The position numbers were made by a program, and so were the translations under genes. A DNA stretch of 21,578 nucleotides from a virus, in IMG/VR virus record IMGVR_UViG_3300044678_001216, positions 1-21,578 of that record. One strand, given 5' to 3'. The notes beneath the pieces were generated by a model that saw nothing but the letters and a program-made list of their open reading frames with translations, searched no databases and had not been told where the DNA came from. Shown one piece after another: positions 942-9,150 of this stretch. Within the stretch, counting starts at the first letter, position 1; every line of letters begins with the position of its first letter.

Positions 942-3103
942 TGTCTGGCTATTTTTACAACCGCATAGCAGCGCATTGTTGATCCATTTACTTTCCTTTT
1001 CACCTGTTGGAATCCCAAATTTTTCATTTCCATCCCCAACTTTCGAGTGTCAAAAATCCGCTGTTGGCTGTTTACCTCGAGATATATTTTCAATTCGGTA
1101 TTTGTTAAATAATCGCTGTAATCACCATTTTGCGGAACTCTAAAATATTGGTTTATTAATTCCGCTTCAAAATTAATTGCATTAAATTCACTGCTATTTT
1201 CGTTTAGTTGCAATATATCCTCACTCGAAAGGTGCCAATTGAAACCCGCTTGGTAGAGGTCGTAAAAGGCCATAAATAGCGCGGTTTTGTCAATGGCGTT
1301 ATATGCCGGGTGATTGATGCCGAGCACATTAATGGGAAGGATTCGGCGGTTGCCTGTTGGATCTGAGATAAGGCCGAGATCGTTGGTAGTGCCTGCTAAG
1401 ACGGCCAATCGCTTCAAATCTCTGTGGGTGCGTCCATAAGGCAGGCGAATTGAGAATGAAGCCTTACTAGTCAACTCCTTAAATCGTTTGGCCTCAAACT
1501 TGGATTTACCCCCAAATTCATCATCCATAATAATGAGCTTTTTGGTTAACAGAATATCGTCATCCTTTCCCCCATCCAGTTTAGACTCTGCGTAGTAGTT
1601 GGCGAGTGGTTTGGGAAGCAGCCTGCGAAAAAACTCAGTTTTACCCGTATTTTGGCGCTCGCCTGCTAGGACAAGCACGAGCGGGGACGTGTGCCCGTAA
1701 ACGCTGGCAATCATTCCAACGCCCCAGTGAGTTAAGTATTTTGCAACGTGTGGCGTGGTGGTTTCAATACAAACGGCCAACTCATCAATAATTTGCTGGC
1801 TTCGCTGTACCGACTCATTAGCCTTAAGAAAGTCCTCGAATGGGTTGTAATAGCGAGTGAGTTCTGAGTAAATAACCCTGCAGAAAAACTCAAATGATAT
1901 TTTGTTGTCTGTTAATTCTGAAAATTTCAAATACATCGTATTTAACGACATATCATCGAGAATCTTGGGGCGGTTGTTAAATGTTACAGCACGATCCTCA
2001 ATATCTGCCGTGATTGTATTGTAGTGCAATTGGTGATTATTCGATAGATACAACTGGCATAGCGCGACGGGCGTCTGACCCGTAAGCTGCAGCGAAACAT
2101 TGGCCTCAAATACTGCGGCAGCGGTCTCTGTTGCCTTTTCAACATCCATTCCAGACAGCCGAGCAATCTCAACAACTGACTCCTGAGCACGCCCTTGCTT
2201 TTTGGCCATTTTTGCAATATTCTCCAACTTCACAGCCTGCTGACTTTTCAACTCAACGCCTGCCTGTTTAGCGTAGTAGTAAAAGGTGCCGATTGCAATC
2301 TTGCTTTGGCCTGTATCTCGTAGGCAATAATTATACTGCCTATCGGCTTTGATGTGGTCGTATTTGCTATTTTGTGCGGCAATGGCGTGGAAATACTCCC
2401 TACCTCGCTCTCCAAACTCTGAAGCCAGTGCAAAGCCTATGTCGAGATAGTTTTTGTAAGCGCCCTCTGTTAGATCATAGCCGCCCCGGCAAATCCTGTC
2501 AATCAATTCATCAAATTCGTTGCCAGTTAGCACAGTGTGCACTTGCTTGGGCTTTGCTTCCTTTTTCGGGTACTCCTTAAACGTCTTGCTTTGCTCGTTG
2601 ACATACAGCAGCGGATCATAAGACAGAAACCGCAAACGGCTCACATTCTTGCAACTCTGATCAATTAGTTGCCCGTAGTTTTTAAAATAGTATTGTTTTA
2701 ATCCATTAAACGCATCTAGGTGGCGCTCTGGCTCAATCTTGACCAAGGCCGCAAGTCCATTGCCCGAAACCGACAGCAGTGCCGCAAAAGTATACGGATC
2801 TTTGGCCAGTTCGGATTTCAGTCGAGCCACATCATCGACAGCGTCAAAATCAATACAAATTAGCCCTGAGTGTTGGATGAGGTTTGCATTGCTTACGTTA
2901 TCCCGAAAAGTCCCCGAAATCGTAACCGCTGGAATCCGTTGCTTTGCCTCGGCCTGCTCATCCTTACTCAACGCTTTAGTATTCCTGTAGGCTTCAATAA
3001 GTGCCAAGTGTTGACCAGATCGCACGAGGGCGAAATAATCAGCTATTTGGATAGTGTGGTGCTTTGCCGACTGTCTTATATTCGGCAGATAGGTTATTTG
3101 CAT
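938..3103 (-). CDS. Primase-helicase: BT4734/VirE-N domain, PriCT-like middle, VirE/VapE-type helicase
   Basis: A 721-aa replication protein. Residues about 1-180 resemble the BT4734-like/VirE N-terminal domain, a relative of archaeo-eukaryotic primases, with the acidic ICIDFD strand (82-87) and a later SRLRFLSYDP segment. Residues about 195-290 look like a PriCT module. The C-terminal half is a virulence-associated-E P-loop helicase: Walker A GERQNTGKTE (481-490), Walker B LIIMDDEF (523-530), sensor AGTTND (570-575) and a GNRRILPI arginine-finger region (584-591). It probably primes and unwinds phage DNA. It overlaps the upstream 58-aa gene by 10 bp and the downstream 95-aa ORF by ATGA. Domain order is typical of Bacteroidetes mobile elements and phages. 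Confidence 0.9.
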   Translation of the reverse strand: MQITYLPNIRQSAKHHTIQIADYFALVRSGQHLALIEAYRNTKALSKDEQAEAKQRIPAVTISGTFRDNVSNANLIQHSGLICIDFDAVDDVARLKSELAKDPYTFAALLSVSGNGLAALVKIEPERHLDAFNGLKQYYFKNYGQLIDQSCKNVSRLRFLSYDPLLYVNEQSKTFKEYPKKEAKPKQVHTVLTGNEFDELIDRICRGGYDLTEGAYKNYLDIGFALASEFGERGREYFHAIAAQNSKYDHIKADRQYNYCLRDTGQSKIAIGTFYYYAKQAGVELKSQQAVKLENIAKMAKKQGRAQESVVEIARLSGMDVEKATETAAAVFEANVSLQLTGQTPVALCQLYLSNNHQLHYNTITADIEDRAVTFNNRPKILDDMSLNTMYLKFSELTDNKISFEFFCRVIYSELTRYYNPFEDFLKANESVQRSQQIIDELAVCIETTTPHVAKYLTHWGVGMIASVYGHTSPLVLVLAGERQNTGKTEFFRRLLPKPLANYYAESKLDGGKDDDILLTKKLIIMDDEFGGKSKFEAKRFKELTSKASFSIRLPYGRTHRDLKRLAVLAGTTNDLGLISDPTGNRRILPINVLGINHPAYNAIDKTALFMAFYDLYQAGFNWHLSSEDILQLNENSSEFNAINFEAELINQYFRVPQNGDYSDYLTNTELKIYLEVNSQQRIFDTRKLGMEMKNLGFQQVKRKVNGSTMRCYAVVKIARQ

Positions 3104-7072: not shown

Positions 7073-7247
7073 TATCGTTTTTTATTACAAGGTTTAAAAC
7101 ATAAAGGGCGGCCACTGTTATCACGAAAGTAAAACGGGCATCCTGTGGCCACGTAGCAGGGTTAAACTGCCACGATACAAATACAAATCCTGCATAGGTA
7201 ATAAGCAGGGATTCGAGCAAACAGAGCAAAGCGGTTTTGGTGGTCAT
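7062..7247 (-). CDS. Small two-helix membrane protein, 61 aa
   Basis: Two hydrophobic segments are visible (about 6-26 and 41-55) separated by a short polar loop containing WPQDARF, with a polar end NDNDN. This gives a hairpin topology in the inner membrane. Position as second gene in the early operon makes an early host-membrane function (for example superinfection exclusion) conceivable, but nothing in the sequence proves it. The start overlaps the preceding stop by 4 bp. Confidence 0.7.
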   Translation of the reverse strand: MTTKTALLCLLESLLITYAGFVFVSWQFNPATWPQDARFTFVITVAALYVLNLVIKNDNDN

Positions 7248-7459
7248 TTGTCAGCCCTCCCTCTGTACATTCTGCGCTGTACTAACATCTGCGTGAACTC
7301 ATCAAACTCGGGGCGATACTCATCGCGCTCAAATTTGTAGGGCTCGGCTTCAGGGGTTTCAATTCTGCGCTTTTTGTTGCGGCGAATTACGTGAGCGCAG
7401 TAGGCCACCGCAATGGTAGCAGGCGCTAAAATGATTGGGTAAATTATATCTAAGCTCAT
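7244..7459 (-). CDS. Single-pass membrane protein, 71 aa, first gene of the early operon
   Basis: Start chosen at ATG 7459 (MSLDIIYPIILAPATIAVAY). The reading frame extends 17 codons further to an ATG at 7510, but that segment lies on top of the promoter elements, so the longer form would start upstream of transcription. The protein has one N-terminal transmembrane helix (about 4-22), then a basic stop-transfer run (RRNKKRR) and an acidic-to-basic cytoplasmic tail. Function unknown. The predicted leader is about 17 nt with no Shine-Dalgarno sequence. Confidence 0.75.
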   Translation of the reverse strand: MSLDIIYPIILAPATIAVAYCAHVIRRNKKRRIETPEAEPYKFERDEYRPEFDEFTQMLVQRRMYRGRADK

Positions 7460-7480
7460 AAATGTGGTGCTATGTGGTTG

Positions 7481-7511
7481 CAAATATAAAGGCATTATCC
7501 ACAAAACCAAA
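7481..7511 (-). promoter_or_regulatory. Bacteroidetes-type promoter of the early/replication operon
   Basis: On the minus strand a -33 TTTG (complement of 7508-7511) is followed after exactly 19 bp by TATATTTG (complement of 7481-7488), matching the -7 consensus TAnnTTTG. The predicted start, about 5 nt downstream near 7476, gives a short leader to the ATG at 7459. All genes leftwards to position 26 overlap or abut, so this promoter probably drives the whole replication operon. Confidence 0.75.
7495..7503 (+). promoter_or_regulatory. Perfect DnaA box inside the early promoter
   Basis: TTATCCACA is the full consensus DnaA box. It lies between the -33 and -7 elements of the early operon promoter, where a bound protein would block RNA polymerase. 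No other perfect match was noticed in the window. The fifth gene of the controlled operon encodes an orphan DnaA domain IV protein, so autoregulation or sensing of host DnaA is a direct hypothesis. Confidence 0.7.
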
Positions 7512-7519
7512 TAAATTTG

Positions 7520-7551
7520 AAAAAAAAATGCCCCGAGCCGAAACCCGAGGC
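7520..7551 (-). terminator. Intrinsic terminator after the 58-aa regulator gene
   Basis: In the minus-strand RNA a 9-bp GC-rich stem (three G-U pairs included) closes on a UUCG tetraloop. One A and then nine U residues follow (complement of the A-run 7520-7528). It lies 31 bp beyond the regulator stop and just before the early promoter, so it insulates that promoter. It could also stop late read-through arriving from the lysis genes. Confidence 0.75.
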
Positions 7552-7582
7552 AGTTAGCACCACACTAACGGCGCAAATATAC

Positions 7583-7759
7583 TCAAAGATTTTGTAAGGT
7601 TTGTTCTAATTTCCTCAACGTTTCTAAGCTCTTCGGTTCTTTTCTTGACCAGTGAGTTAAGACGCACCGATTCACGCCTGCAAGTGCGCAAAGTTTTGTT
7701 AAGGTTACGCCCTTTTGGATTGCCTTAATTTTTAAATCTGTTACGATATTTTTTTCCAT
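7583..7759 (-). CDS. 58-aa Cro/XRE-like helix-turn-helix regulator
   Basis: Manual translation from ATG 7759 gives MEKNIVTDLKIKAIQKGVTL, then TKLCALAGVNRCVLTHWSRK and a closing helix SLETLRKLEQTLQNL. The pattern (helix, T-TKLC-LAGV turn, recognition helix V-T-W, then the hydrophobic last helix) is that of XRE/Cro-type DNA-binding domains. The gene diverges from the recombination genes; the two possible ATGs form a CATATG at 7757-7762. A promoter with near-consensus elements lies directly upstream and a strong terminator follows. It probably represses one or both divergent promoters and perhaps the early operon. Too short to include a CI-type cleavage or dimer domain. Confidence 0.8.
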   Translation of the reverse strand: MEKNIVTDLKIKAIQKGVTLTKLCALAGVNRCVLTHWSRKEPKSLETLRKLEQTLQNL

Positions 7760-7765
7760 ATGCTA

Positions 7766-7797
7766 CAAATTTACAAAAAAAGCGATAAATTTGCAAA
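7766..7797. promoter_or_regulatory. Palindromic divergent promoter/operator CAAATTTA-N12-TAAATTTG
   Basis: The 8-bp arms at 7766-7773 and 7786-7793 are exact reverse complements, and each reads as a -7 box (TAAATTTG = TAnnTTTG) for one direction. The minus-strand promoter also has its -33 TTTG (complement of 7794-7797) at 20 bp spacing, leading to the regulator ATG at 7759 with almost no leader. The plus-strand box would start RNA near 7798, just before the exonuclease ATG at 7802, but no -33 TTTG is seen there. A dimeric regulator binding the palindrome could switch both directions. Confidence 0.6.
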
Positions 7798-7801
7798 TGT
7801 T

Positions 7802-8566
7802 ATGCAGTACCACACCGACATAAGCCGCGTCTCAAAGAGCGGCCTCGACCTAATTAACCGCGCTCCAGCATTGTACTATGAGCGCTATCTGAACCCCAAC
7901 GCCTCACCGCAAAAAGAAACCCCGGCCCTTATCATTGGCTCCGCTGCTCATTGTGCAGTGTTTGAGCCTGCTGAGTTCGGCAAACGCTATGCTGTTGCCC
8001 CTCATTGCGACCGACGCACAAAGGAAGGCAAAGAAACCTGGGCCAACTTCCTCGAGCATTCCAAGGGCCTCATTCCACTGGATGCCGAAAGCGCCACAAT
8101 GGTAGAGCGGATAATGGAAAGCGTCCGCGGTCATCGGACGGCGCAGTACTTACTAAAGGACGGCATTGCTGAGCAACCTATTTACTGGAATGATGAAGAG
8201 ACGGAAATTGATTGCAAGGCTCGCCCCGATTGGCTTACTCCTGACAACGTTATAATTGACCTCAAAACAACAGAGGACGCAAGCCCAAGAGGCTTCGCAC
8301 AGAGCGTTAAAAAGTACCGATACGACGTGCAGGCAGCCTTCTACTCCGATGGTCTTGAAGAGGCCACAGGAAAGCCGTGTAATGGTTTCTTTTTTGTTGC
8401 TGTTGAAAAGCACCCGCCCTATCTTGTTGGCTGGTATTTTATCGGCAACGAGGATCTAAAGGAAGCCAGACAGAAATACAAAAAAAATCTGATGACCTAC
8501 GGCTTTTGTAAGAAGTCGAACATATGGCACGGATATAGCGAAATAGTAACTAAGGTAATTTTATGA
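7802..8566 (+). CDS. RecE/YqaJ-like PD-(D/E)XK exonuclease
   Basis: A 254-aa nuclease like the C-terminal domain of RecE (exonuclease VIII). An N-terminal SKSGLDLINRAPALYYERYL helix leads to IIGSAAHCAVFEP, then the catalytic region ARPDWL ... VIIDLKTT (D and D-x-K) and the YDVQAAFY helix. It would resect double-stranded DNA ends to single strands for the annealing protein encoded next, with which it shares an ATGA overlap. The frame is open back to an ATG at 7760, but those 14 codons cover the palindromic promoter and are AT-rich and non-conserved in look, so ATG 7802 (MQYHTDISRVSKSG) is preferred. Confidence 0.87.
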   Translation: MQYHTDISRVSKSGLDLINRAPALYYERYLNPNASPQKETPALIIGSAAHCAVFEPAEFGKRYAVAPHCDRRTKEGKETWANFLEHSKGLIPLDAESATMVERIMESVRGHRTAQYLLKDGIAEQPIYWNDEETEIDCKARPDWLTPDNVIIDLKTTEDASPRGFAQSVKKYRYDVQAAFYSDGLEEATGKPCNGFFFVAVEKHPPYLVGWYFIGNEDLKEARQKYKKNLMTYGFCKKSNIWHGYSEIVTKVIL

Positions 8567-9150
8567 GCACAGAAATAACAGAAACAAACCCCGCGCCACT
8601 CAGCAGCTTCGAGCTGGCCCAACGCCAAGCAAAAGCCCTGAGCGCTTCAGACTTGGTGCCACAACAATACAAAGGCAATGTCGCCAATACTTTGGTGGCT
8701 TTGGAAATTGCAAACCGCATCGGCGCCTCGCCGCTTATGGTGATGCAAAACCTGCACATCATTCACGGCCGCCCCAGTTGGAGCAGTACTTTCGTGATCG
8801 CCGCAATAAACGGCTGCGGAAAGTTCACCGCCCTGCGCTTTGTTGGTGATCTTGACAAAGGTATTAAGGCAGTTGCAACCGAAAAGGCAACAGGCGAGAC
8901 CGTAGAAGGCCCCGCAGTTACAATGGCAATGGCAAACGCTGAGGGGTGGGTGAGCAAGGCTGGCAGCAAATGGAAAACAATGCCTGAGCTAATGATGCGC
9001 TACAGGGCCGCCGCTTTCTTTGGCCGTCTCTACGCCCCCGAGATCACCATGGGGATGCACAGCGTTGAGGAAGTGGTAGATATCCAACACGAAGAGCCCG
9101 CAGGGGTTGCAGCGATCAACGCTAAACTAATTAACCCAACGCCTGAATAA
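8563..9150 (+). CDS. RecT-like single-strand annealing recombinase
   Basis: A 195-aa protein with the features of a RecT-like family widespread in phages: SSFELAQRQAKALSASDLVP, the NTLVALEIANRIGASPLMVM helix, HGRPSWSSTFVIAAIN, and the late MPELMMRYRAAAFFGRLYAP segment followed by an acidic VEEVVDI. Such proteins anneal complementary strands during phage recombination and double-strand-end repair. Pairing with a RecE-like exonuclease in a coupled operon supports the role. Its last 20 bp overlap tail-to-tail with the endolysin gene on the other strand. Assignment rests on remembered family pattern plus context. Confidence 0.78.
   Translation: MSTEITETNPAPLSSFELAQRQAKALSASDLVPQQYKGNVANTLVALEIANRIGASPLMVMQNLHIIHGRPSWSSTFVIAAINGCGKFTALRFVGDLDKGIKAVATEKATGETVEGPAVTMAMANAEGWVSKAGSKWKTMPELMMRYRAAAFFGRLYAPEITMGMHSVEEVVDIQHEEPAGVAAINAKLINPTPE

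Follow-up and report, generated by a model that had tools for sequence, protein, structure and literature searches.

Divergent promoters with leaderless messages have been described in the immB region of phage PY54, where the cI and cro mRNAs begin at the AUG (mapped by RACE; PMC4488713), and the OR region of lambda likewise combines a leaderless regulator message (cI from PRM) with divergent transcription from a short region. Sigma-ABfr promoters of B. fragilis, B. thetaiotaomicron and Flavobacterium carry a -7 box, TAnnTTTG, and a -33 element, TTTG; in F. johnsoniae RNA starts were measured 4-5 nt past the -7 box, and the -33 motif is optional and barely visible even in real promoters (PMC6847099). 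These hosts rarely set the box beside a start codon (PMC7366714, PMC9723704): ~3.7% of 5′ UTRs are shorter than 10 nt in B. thetaiotaomicron (PMC7366714) and 5.5% are leaderless in F. psychrophilum (PMC9723704). In Deinococcus-Thermus, a -10 motif adjacent to ORFs gives leaderless mRNA (PMC12340547). Short RNAs beside phage control genes include P22 sar, which prevents translation of ant mRNA from starting by base-pairing with it, and lambda OOP, each acting on one phage mRNA by long complementarity (PMC12197685).

The locus analysed here, positions 7757-7804 of an IMG/VR viral contig (the window, 21,578 bases), is very probably a compact bidirectional sigma-ABfr-type promoter whose two messages would both be essentially leaderless, with an eye-catching palindrome arising as a by-product of two boxes. 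The promoter pair is a variant on known divergent leaderless promoters. As in PY54, a repressor-type gene and an opposite gene are read from divergent promoters as leaderless messages, here predicted from sequence; PY54, however, has a 16-bp Cro operator, two repressors and promoters without shared elements, whereas at this locus the promoters overlap and a single HTH gene lies opposite a recombination operon. Compared with lambda, there is no second repressor, no 17-bp operators were recognised and no recombinase gene was found in related contigs. The box directly in front of an ORF recalls Deinococcus-Thermus, where cellular genes of another phylum use a classical -10 box. Shine-Dalgarno leaders are absent from Bacteroidota, in which leaderless mRNAs are rare, yet in this phage group near-leaderless starts seem to be the rule, even at two opposing control genes.

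The contig and its relatives

The window encodes a BT4734-like primase with PriCT_2 and VapE domains, the nearest relatives of which belong to phages of Cellulophaga, Nonlabens and Flavobacterium, so a Bacteroidota host is likely. The host is placed no finer than this affinity, since one scan of bacterial genomes with the exonuclease gave no match and the small RNA cassette described below had 0 matches in ~85,000 bacterial and archaeal species genomes. Against known phages, the region gave no DNA match. Relatives were gathered by scans with the exonuclease, the regulator and the primase, and range from near-identical to 55% identity (regulator) or 66-73% (exonuclease). Conservation was compared across 15 aligned lineages, which are partly non-independent and have parts swapped by recombination. 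L142, L149, L158 and L160 were retrieved via the core hairpin of the cassette, so that their core is conserved by construction, while the loci found through the primase (L071-L098, L116) carry no such bias. Distant exonuclease relatives (L015-L036) were set aside, being other phage types in which the promoter region is not comparable, as was a divergent pair with N12 spacing in L102, located upstream of a helicase gene without regulator or exonuclease.

Probable overlapping promoters between regulator and exonuclease genes

The features of this region are:
7583-7759, minus strand: gene for a 58-aa regulator, probably of Cro/C1-type HTH fold (structure comparison)
7760-7761, minus strand: predicted regulator RNA start, 4-5 nt past the box
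7766-7773, minus strand: -7 box TAAATTTG of the putative leftward (regulator) promoter, invariant at 8/8 positions in 15 lineages
7786-7793, plus strand: -7 box TAAATTTG of the putative rightward (exonuclease-RecT) promoter, TAnnTTTG kept in 15 lineages
7794-7797, minus strand: TTTG as -33 element of the putative leftward promoter, separated by 20 nt from the leftward -7 box, core TTG invariant in 15 lineages
7798-7799, plus strand: predicted exonuclease RNA start, 4-5 nt past the box
7802-8566, plus strand: RecE-like (DUF3799) exonuclease gene, start corrected to 7802 from in-frame stops in relatives
8563-9150, plus strand: gene for a RecT-like annealing protein, second in the rightward operon (phrog_561, E 1e-71), forming a RecE/RecT pair with the DUF3799 exonuclease

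An earlier note on this DNA had described CAAATTTA (7766-7773), a 12-nt spacer and TAAATTTG (7786-7793), flanked by the regulator ATG at 7759 (minus strand) and by an ATG at 7802 in frame with an ORF listed from 7760. All of this is present in the window, and the proposal that the palindrome consists of two back-to-back -7 boxes is borne out by conservation, TAnnTTTG being kept in both directions in all 15 lineages. The leftward box is preceded by TTTG-N20, within the usual -33 spacing of TTTG or TTG (~17-23 nt); its core TTG reads CAA on the plus strand (7794-7796). At that spacing no TTTG or TTG precedes the rightward box in the window, and several relatives have a rightward TTTG at N23.

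Single TAAATTTG sites are not rare in the window (4 versus 2.6 expected) and TAnnTTTG is only mildly enriched (33 versus 23.7). In 13 of 14 related contigs (the fourteenth stops inside the site) there is exactly one divergent pair CAAANNTA-N12-TANNTTTG, always in this place, and a backward-read control had 0 occurrences in them, so the pair is not due to chance. Eleven of the 12 spacer columns vary among the 15 lineages and the length is always 12, a constancy explained by the leftward -33 element abutting the rightward -7 box (8 + 12 = 20). Both boxes, N12 and the leftward TTG are constant even where the regulator is only 55% identical, and TTTGCAA, the end of the right box plus the adjoining CAA, is invariant in 15 lineages. 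At the nn positions the right box has AA in 12 of 15 lineages and TT in three (L076, L082/L116 and L158, reading TATTTTTG). Since boxes, N12 and the -33 TTG are invariant and exact symmetry is lost in three lineages, selection appears to keep the promoters, not the dyad.

A further divergent -7 pair, with N19 spacing and ending in TATATTTG, was seen in L101 (2582) and L108 (1820); in related contigs a gene ATG lies ~5 nt past TATATTTG, seemingly in the same context.

All lineages have the ATG 5-6 nt from the box on the leftward side and 6-8 nt from it on the rightward side. With the spacing of box and RNA start measured in F. johnsoniae (PMC6847099), leaders of 1-2 nt for the regulator (ATG 7759) and 3-4 nt for the exonuclease (ATG 7802) are predicted, in agreement with the near-leaderless starts proposed before. 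The -7 rule itself comes from Flavobacterium and Bacteroides, a caveat for a phage whose host is placed only coarsely. The exonuclease starts at 7802 and not at 7760, as had also been suggested: relatives (L009/L085, L011, L012, L080, L082, L086, L087, L090, L094, L116) have an in-frame stop upstream of the equivalent ATG with no start codon in between, and in L098 a TTG replaces the ATG at 7760. One gene start is thus corrected.

Six window genes (657, 7759, 7802, 9694, 12986, 18400) have a box ending 4-8 nt before the ATG. Box density (33 boxes on both strands of the 21,578 bases, with 5 positions allowed and 35 genes considered) predicts ~0.13 such genes, and permuted motifs averaged 0. Of the six, the genes at 657, 9694, 12986 and 18400, all on the minus strand, have TAnnTTTG ending 4-7 nt before the ATG. 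Related contigs have 2-8 such genes each, counts that are homologous and so not independent; the automatic count for G012, the most diverged large relative included, was 2. The Bacteroidota phages 6H, 11b, B40-8 and RAP44 have one each, most of their boxes lying 14-59 nt upstream. Near-leaderless starts therefore look general in this phage.

In the proposed arrangement TTTG-N20-TAAATTTG would drive the 58-aa Cro/C1-like HTH gene leftward and TAnnTTTG without the usual -33 element would drive the RecE-like exonuclease and RecT rightward, each RNA being predicted to begin 1-4 nt ahead of its AUG. Because the leftward -33 element abuts the rightward -7 box, both promoters would occupy the same ~40 bp, and we infer that RNA polymerase could use only one at a time. 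The palindrome would then be a by-product of two identical promoter boxes pointing outwards in opposite directions rather than a selected dimer operator.

The regulator and the operator reading

In Pfam, HTH_26 scored 15.4 bits with the regulator and 20.5 bits with a homologue, below the cut-off of 22; the regulator's sequence matches in NCBIfam and PDB amounted to noise. The predicted structure has four helices (pLDDT 75.7), and its best Foldseek matches were HipB, SinR, C.BclI and 434 Cro (probability 0.98-1.00, best E 0.028). The model thus makes a Cro/C1-type HTH fold likely, in keeping with the XRE-like protein assumed earlier.

It is highly unlikely that the 28-bp palindrome is the operator of this protein, with a dimer repressing or activating both promoters, as the earlier note had supposed. 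Symmetry is exact in 12 of 15 lineages, with a left arm that never changes, and the Cro/C1-like HTH gene adjoins the palindrome; the promoter elements, however, account for every invariant base too. The nn symmetry is lost in the three lineages named above while the -7 consensus stays; two divergent TAnnTTTG boxes match at 6 of 8 positions by themselves, the remaining two being those that differ there, so the exact palindrome adds little. Nor are the conserved flanks symmetric, with AA on the inner side of the left box and CAA on the outer side of the right one. Dimers of the Cro, 434 and HipB type contact half-sites ~10-13 bp apart, and the half-site centres of the palindrome, 20 bp apart, are too far from each other for one Cro-like dimer. 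The palindrome is also wider than the ~14-17-bp operators of lambda/PY54-type switches. Least likely of all is a promoter in the leftward direction only, with exonuclease-RecT expressed in another way: a -33 element at normal spacing is confined to the leftward side, but the -33 is barely visible even in real F. johnsoniae promoters (PMC6847099) and all 15 lineages preserve the rightward TAnnTTTG, 6-8 nt from its ATG, despite a drifting spacer.

The earlier note also proposed that control of both directions by the regulator makes a compact genetic switch, which is at best a hypothesis. No tyrosine or serine recombinase or rve-type transposase domain (PF00589, PF00239, PF00665) was found in the related contigs, which are fragments, and with the cassette absent from the cellular genomes there is no sign of lysogeny. 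Where lambda and PY54 have two opposing repressors (cI, cro), the other gene here encodes the RecE-like exonuclease. In these fragmentary contigs a lysogeny switch has no support.

Candidate small RNA downstream of the regulator

Directly 3′ of the regulator and on the same strand lies a cassette (7581-7520) with its own -7 box, hairpin and terminator, reading TATATTTG-CGCC-GTTAGTGTGGTGCTAAC-T-GCCTCGGGTTTCGGCTCGGGGC-A-T9. Its parts and candidate targets are:
7574-7581, minus strand: -7 box TATATTTG of the putative cassette, TAnnTTTG kept in all lineages
7520-7569, minus strand: putative small RNA of ~50 nt, predicted transcript
7553-7569, minus strand: hairpin GUUAG-UGUGGUG-CUAAC of the putative RNA
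7530-7551, minus strand: GC-rich terminator hairpin of the putative RNA, followed by a T run
7244-7459, minus strand: 71-aa gene opening the leftward replication operon, preceded by a separate -7 box (TATATTTG, 7481-7488)
7463-7472, minus strand: UAGCACCACA in the leader of this next gene (ATG 7459), candidate target, 10-nt perfect complement
7809-7815, plus strand: ACCACAC in exonuclease codons 3-5, candidate target, complement of the RNA 5′ region
3052-3063, minus strand: AGCACCACACTA, ~40 nt into the primase gene, candidate target, 12-nt perfect complement

The 71-aa gene probably starts at ATG 7459 (leader ~16 nt) and not at TTG 7510. The cassette is nearly verbatim in all regulator-bearing relatives, including those at 55% identity, and TAnnTTTG, hairpin and T run, the elements of an own promoter and an intrinsic terminator, are found in every copy. 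Searching with the 15-nt core retrieved 46 contigs, ~34 of them with a complete cassette. The 22-nt terminator, used independently as a query, retrieved 35: the core is present in 33, another is truncated by its contig end, and L177 is unrelated. All aligned cells (100%) are paired and two pairs are changed on both sides, a modest compensatory signal: the outer hairpin pair is G-C in the window and A-U in relatives at 55% identity, and one terminator pair goes from G-C to A-U in L082. In L098, where a tRNA-like insert lies between regulator and cassette, the -7 box has remained beside the cassette, which thus behaves as an autonomous unit. The cassette reads like a small RNA gene of ~50-59 nt. 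All Rfam matches were far below threshold and, if transcribed, it would be an undescribed phage small RNA as far as Rfam and the present searches show.

The tRNA-like element of L098 (5723-5852, plus strand) scores 36.3 bits with the Rfam tRNA model over 130 nt and was missed by ARAGORN; it may hold an insertion or an odd anticodon arm.

The 5′ part of the putative RNA, UUAGUGUGGUG, is complementary to ACCACA(C)-type sites, all in sense orientation, where early genes begin (exonuclease, next gene, dnaA-like gene and primase), a relation noticed in the same data from which the hypothesis was formed. RNAduplex ranked the exonuclease first (-19.9) and the next gene second (-19.0) among window genes; these were again the top two in G018 and G013, and early genes dominate in G015 and G016. 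The top G016 entry is trivial, since its site overlies the cassette's own antisense strand. Complements of 9 nt or more were present in 2 start regions of the window, 3 of G013, 2 of G018, 4 of G016 and 3 of G015, counts reached by shuffled seeds in 4, 0, 5, 0 and 1 of 500 trials, respectively, P values that are optimistic because the test followed the observation on the same data. Sense-orientation controls gave none of at least 9 nt. ACCACA is found in 25 of 25 distinct downstream leaders or gene starts, persisting even where the following gene has been replaced by another. Of 111 amino-acid-invariant codons in the exonuclease, 12 are also codon-invariant, among them TAC CAC (codons 3-4), constant in 15 lineages.

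From these comparisons we regard it as fairly probable that the cassette makes a ~50-59-nt small RNA whose 5′ end pairs with ACCACA(C) at early mRNA starts on both sides, probably repressing translation. It is rather unlikely that the regulator instead binds GTTAG-N7-CTAAC in the cassette as a 17-bp dyad operator and that the ACCACAC copies are further protein-binding sites, not RNA targets. Cro and CI operators are similar in size and symmetry, and the outer change from G-C to A-T is symmetric, as for a DNA dyad; yet copies near starts keep one orientation, with 17 ACCACAC in mRNA sense in seven contigs (the highest of 35 permutations) and 0 antisense, although one in G016 and similar counts may come from the antisense strand of the cassette. 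The window alone contributes one gene, the strong counts coming from the G015/G016 lineage. No copy retains both arms, a terminator is attached to the core in every case, several copies lie at operon-internal genes without a -7 box, and variants such as CACCACAUUAA still pair via G-U wobble; the last two points favour RNA pairing over a DNA operator.

Distinctly unlikely is a cassette that is a mere terminator of the regulator transcript, its complementarity to early genes coincidental. A strong terminator does follow the regulator stop immediately, and 8-nt seed complements are not enriched genome-wide in the window (6 versus 4.3 expected) or in G018, enrichment being confined to longer matches and gene starts. 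An invariant 15-nt hairpin and a -7 box would, however, be superfluous for a terminator, and the box stays with the hairpin where the tRNA-like insert separates both from the regulator; complements in start regions exceed those of shuffled seeds and exonuclease codons 3-4 are frozen.

Taken as a small RNA gene, the cassette suggests a phage RNA acting on early mRNAs: if made, it would cover the first nucleotides of the exonuclease and replication-gene messages and hinder ribosome loading. We think it just probable on balance that the locus forms a two-layer early-control module, in which overlapping near-leaderless promoters would be combined with an autonomous small RNA, its invariant seed UUAGUGUGGUG pairing with the beginnings of several early mRNAs with near-leaderless or short-leader starts and gating recombination and replication genes at translation. 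Like P22 sar and lambda OOP, the putative RNA is short and lies beside control genes; those act on single mRNAs, whereas it would reach several early mRNAs via one short seed, and no Rfam family matches it at threshold. Phage small RNAs are little explored in Bacteroidota, and this conserved candidate, absent from Rfam, may control early genes. In the primase gene, a 9-nt core of the 12-nt complement is kept in several relatives.
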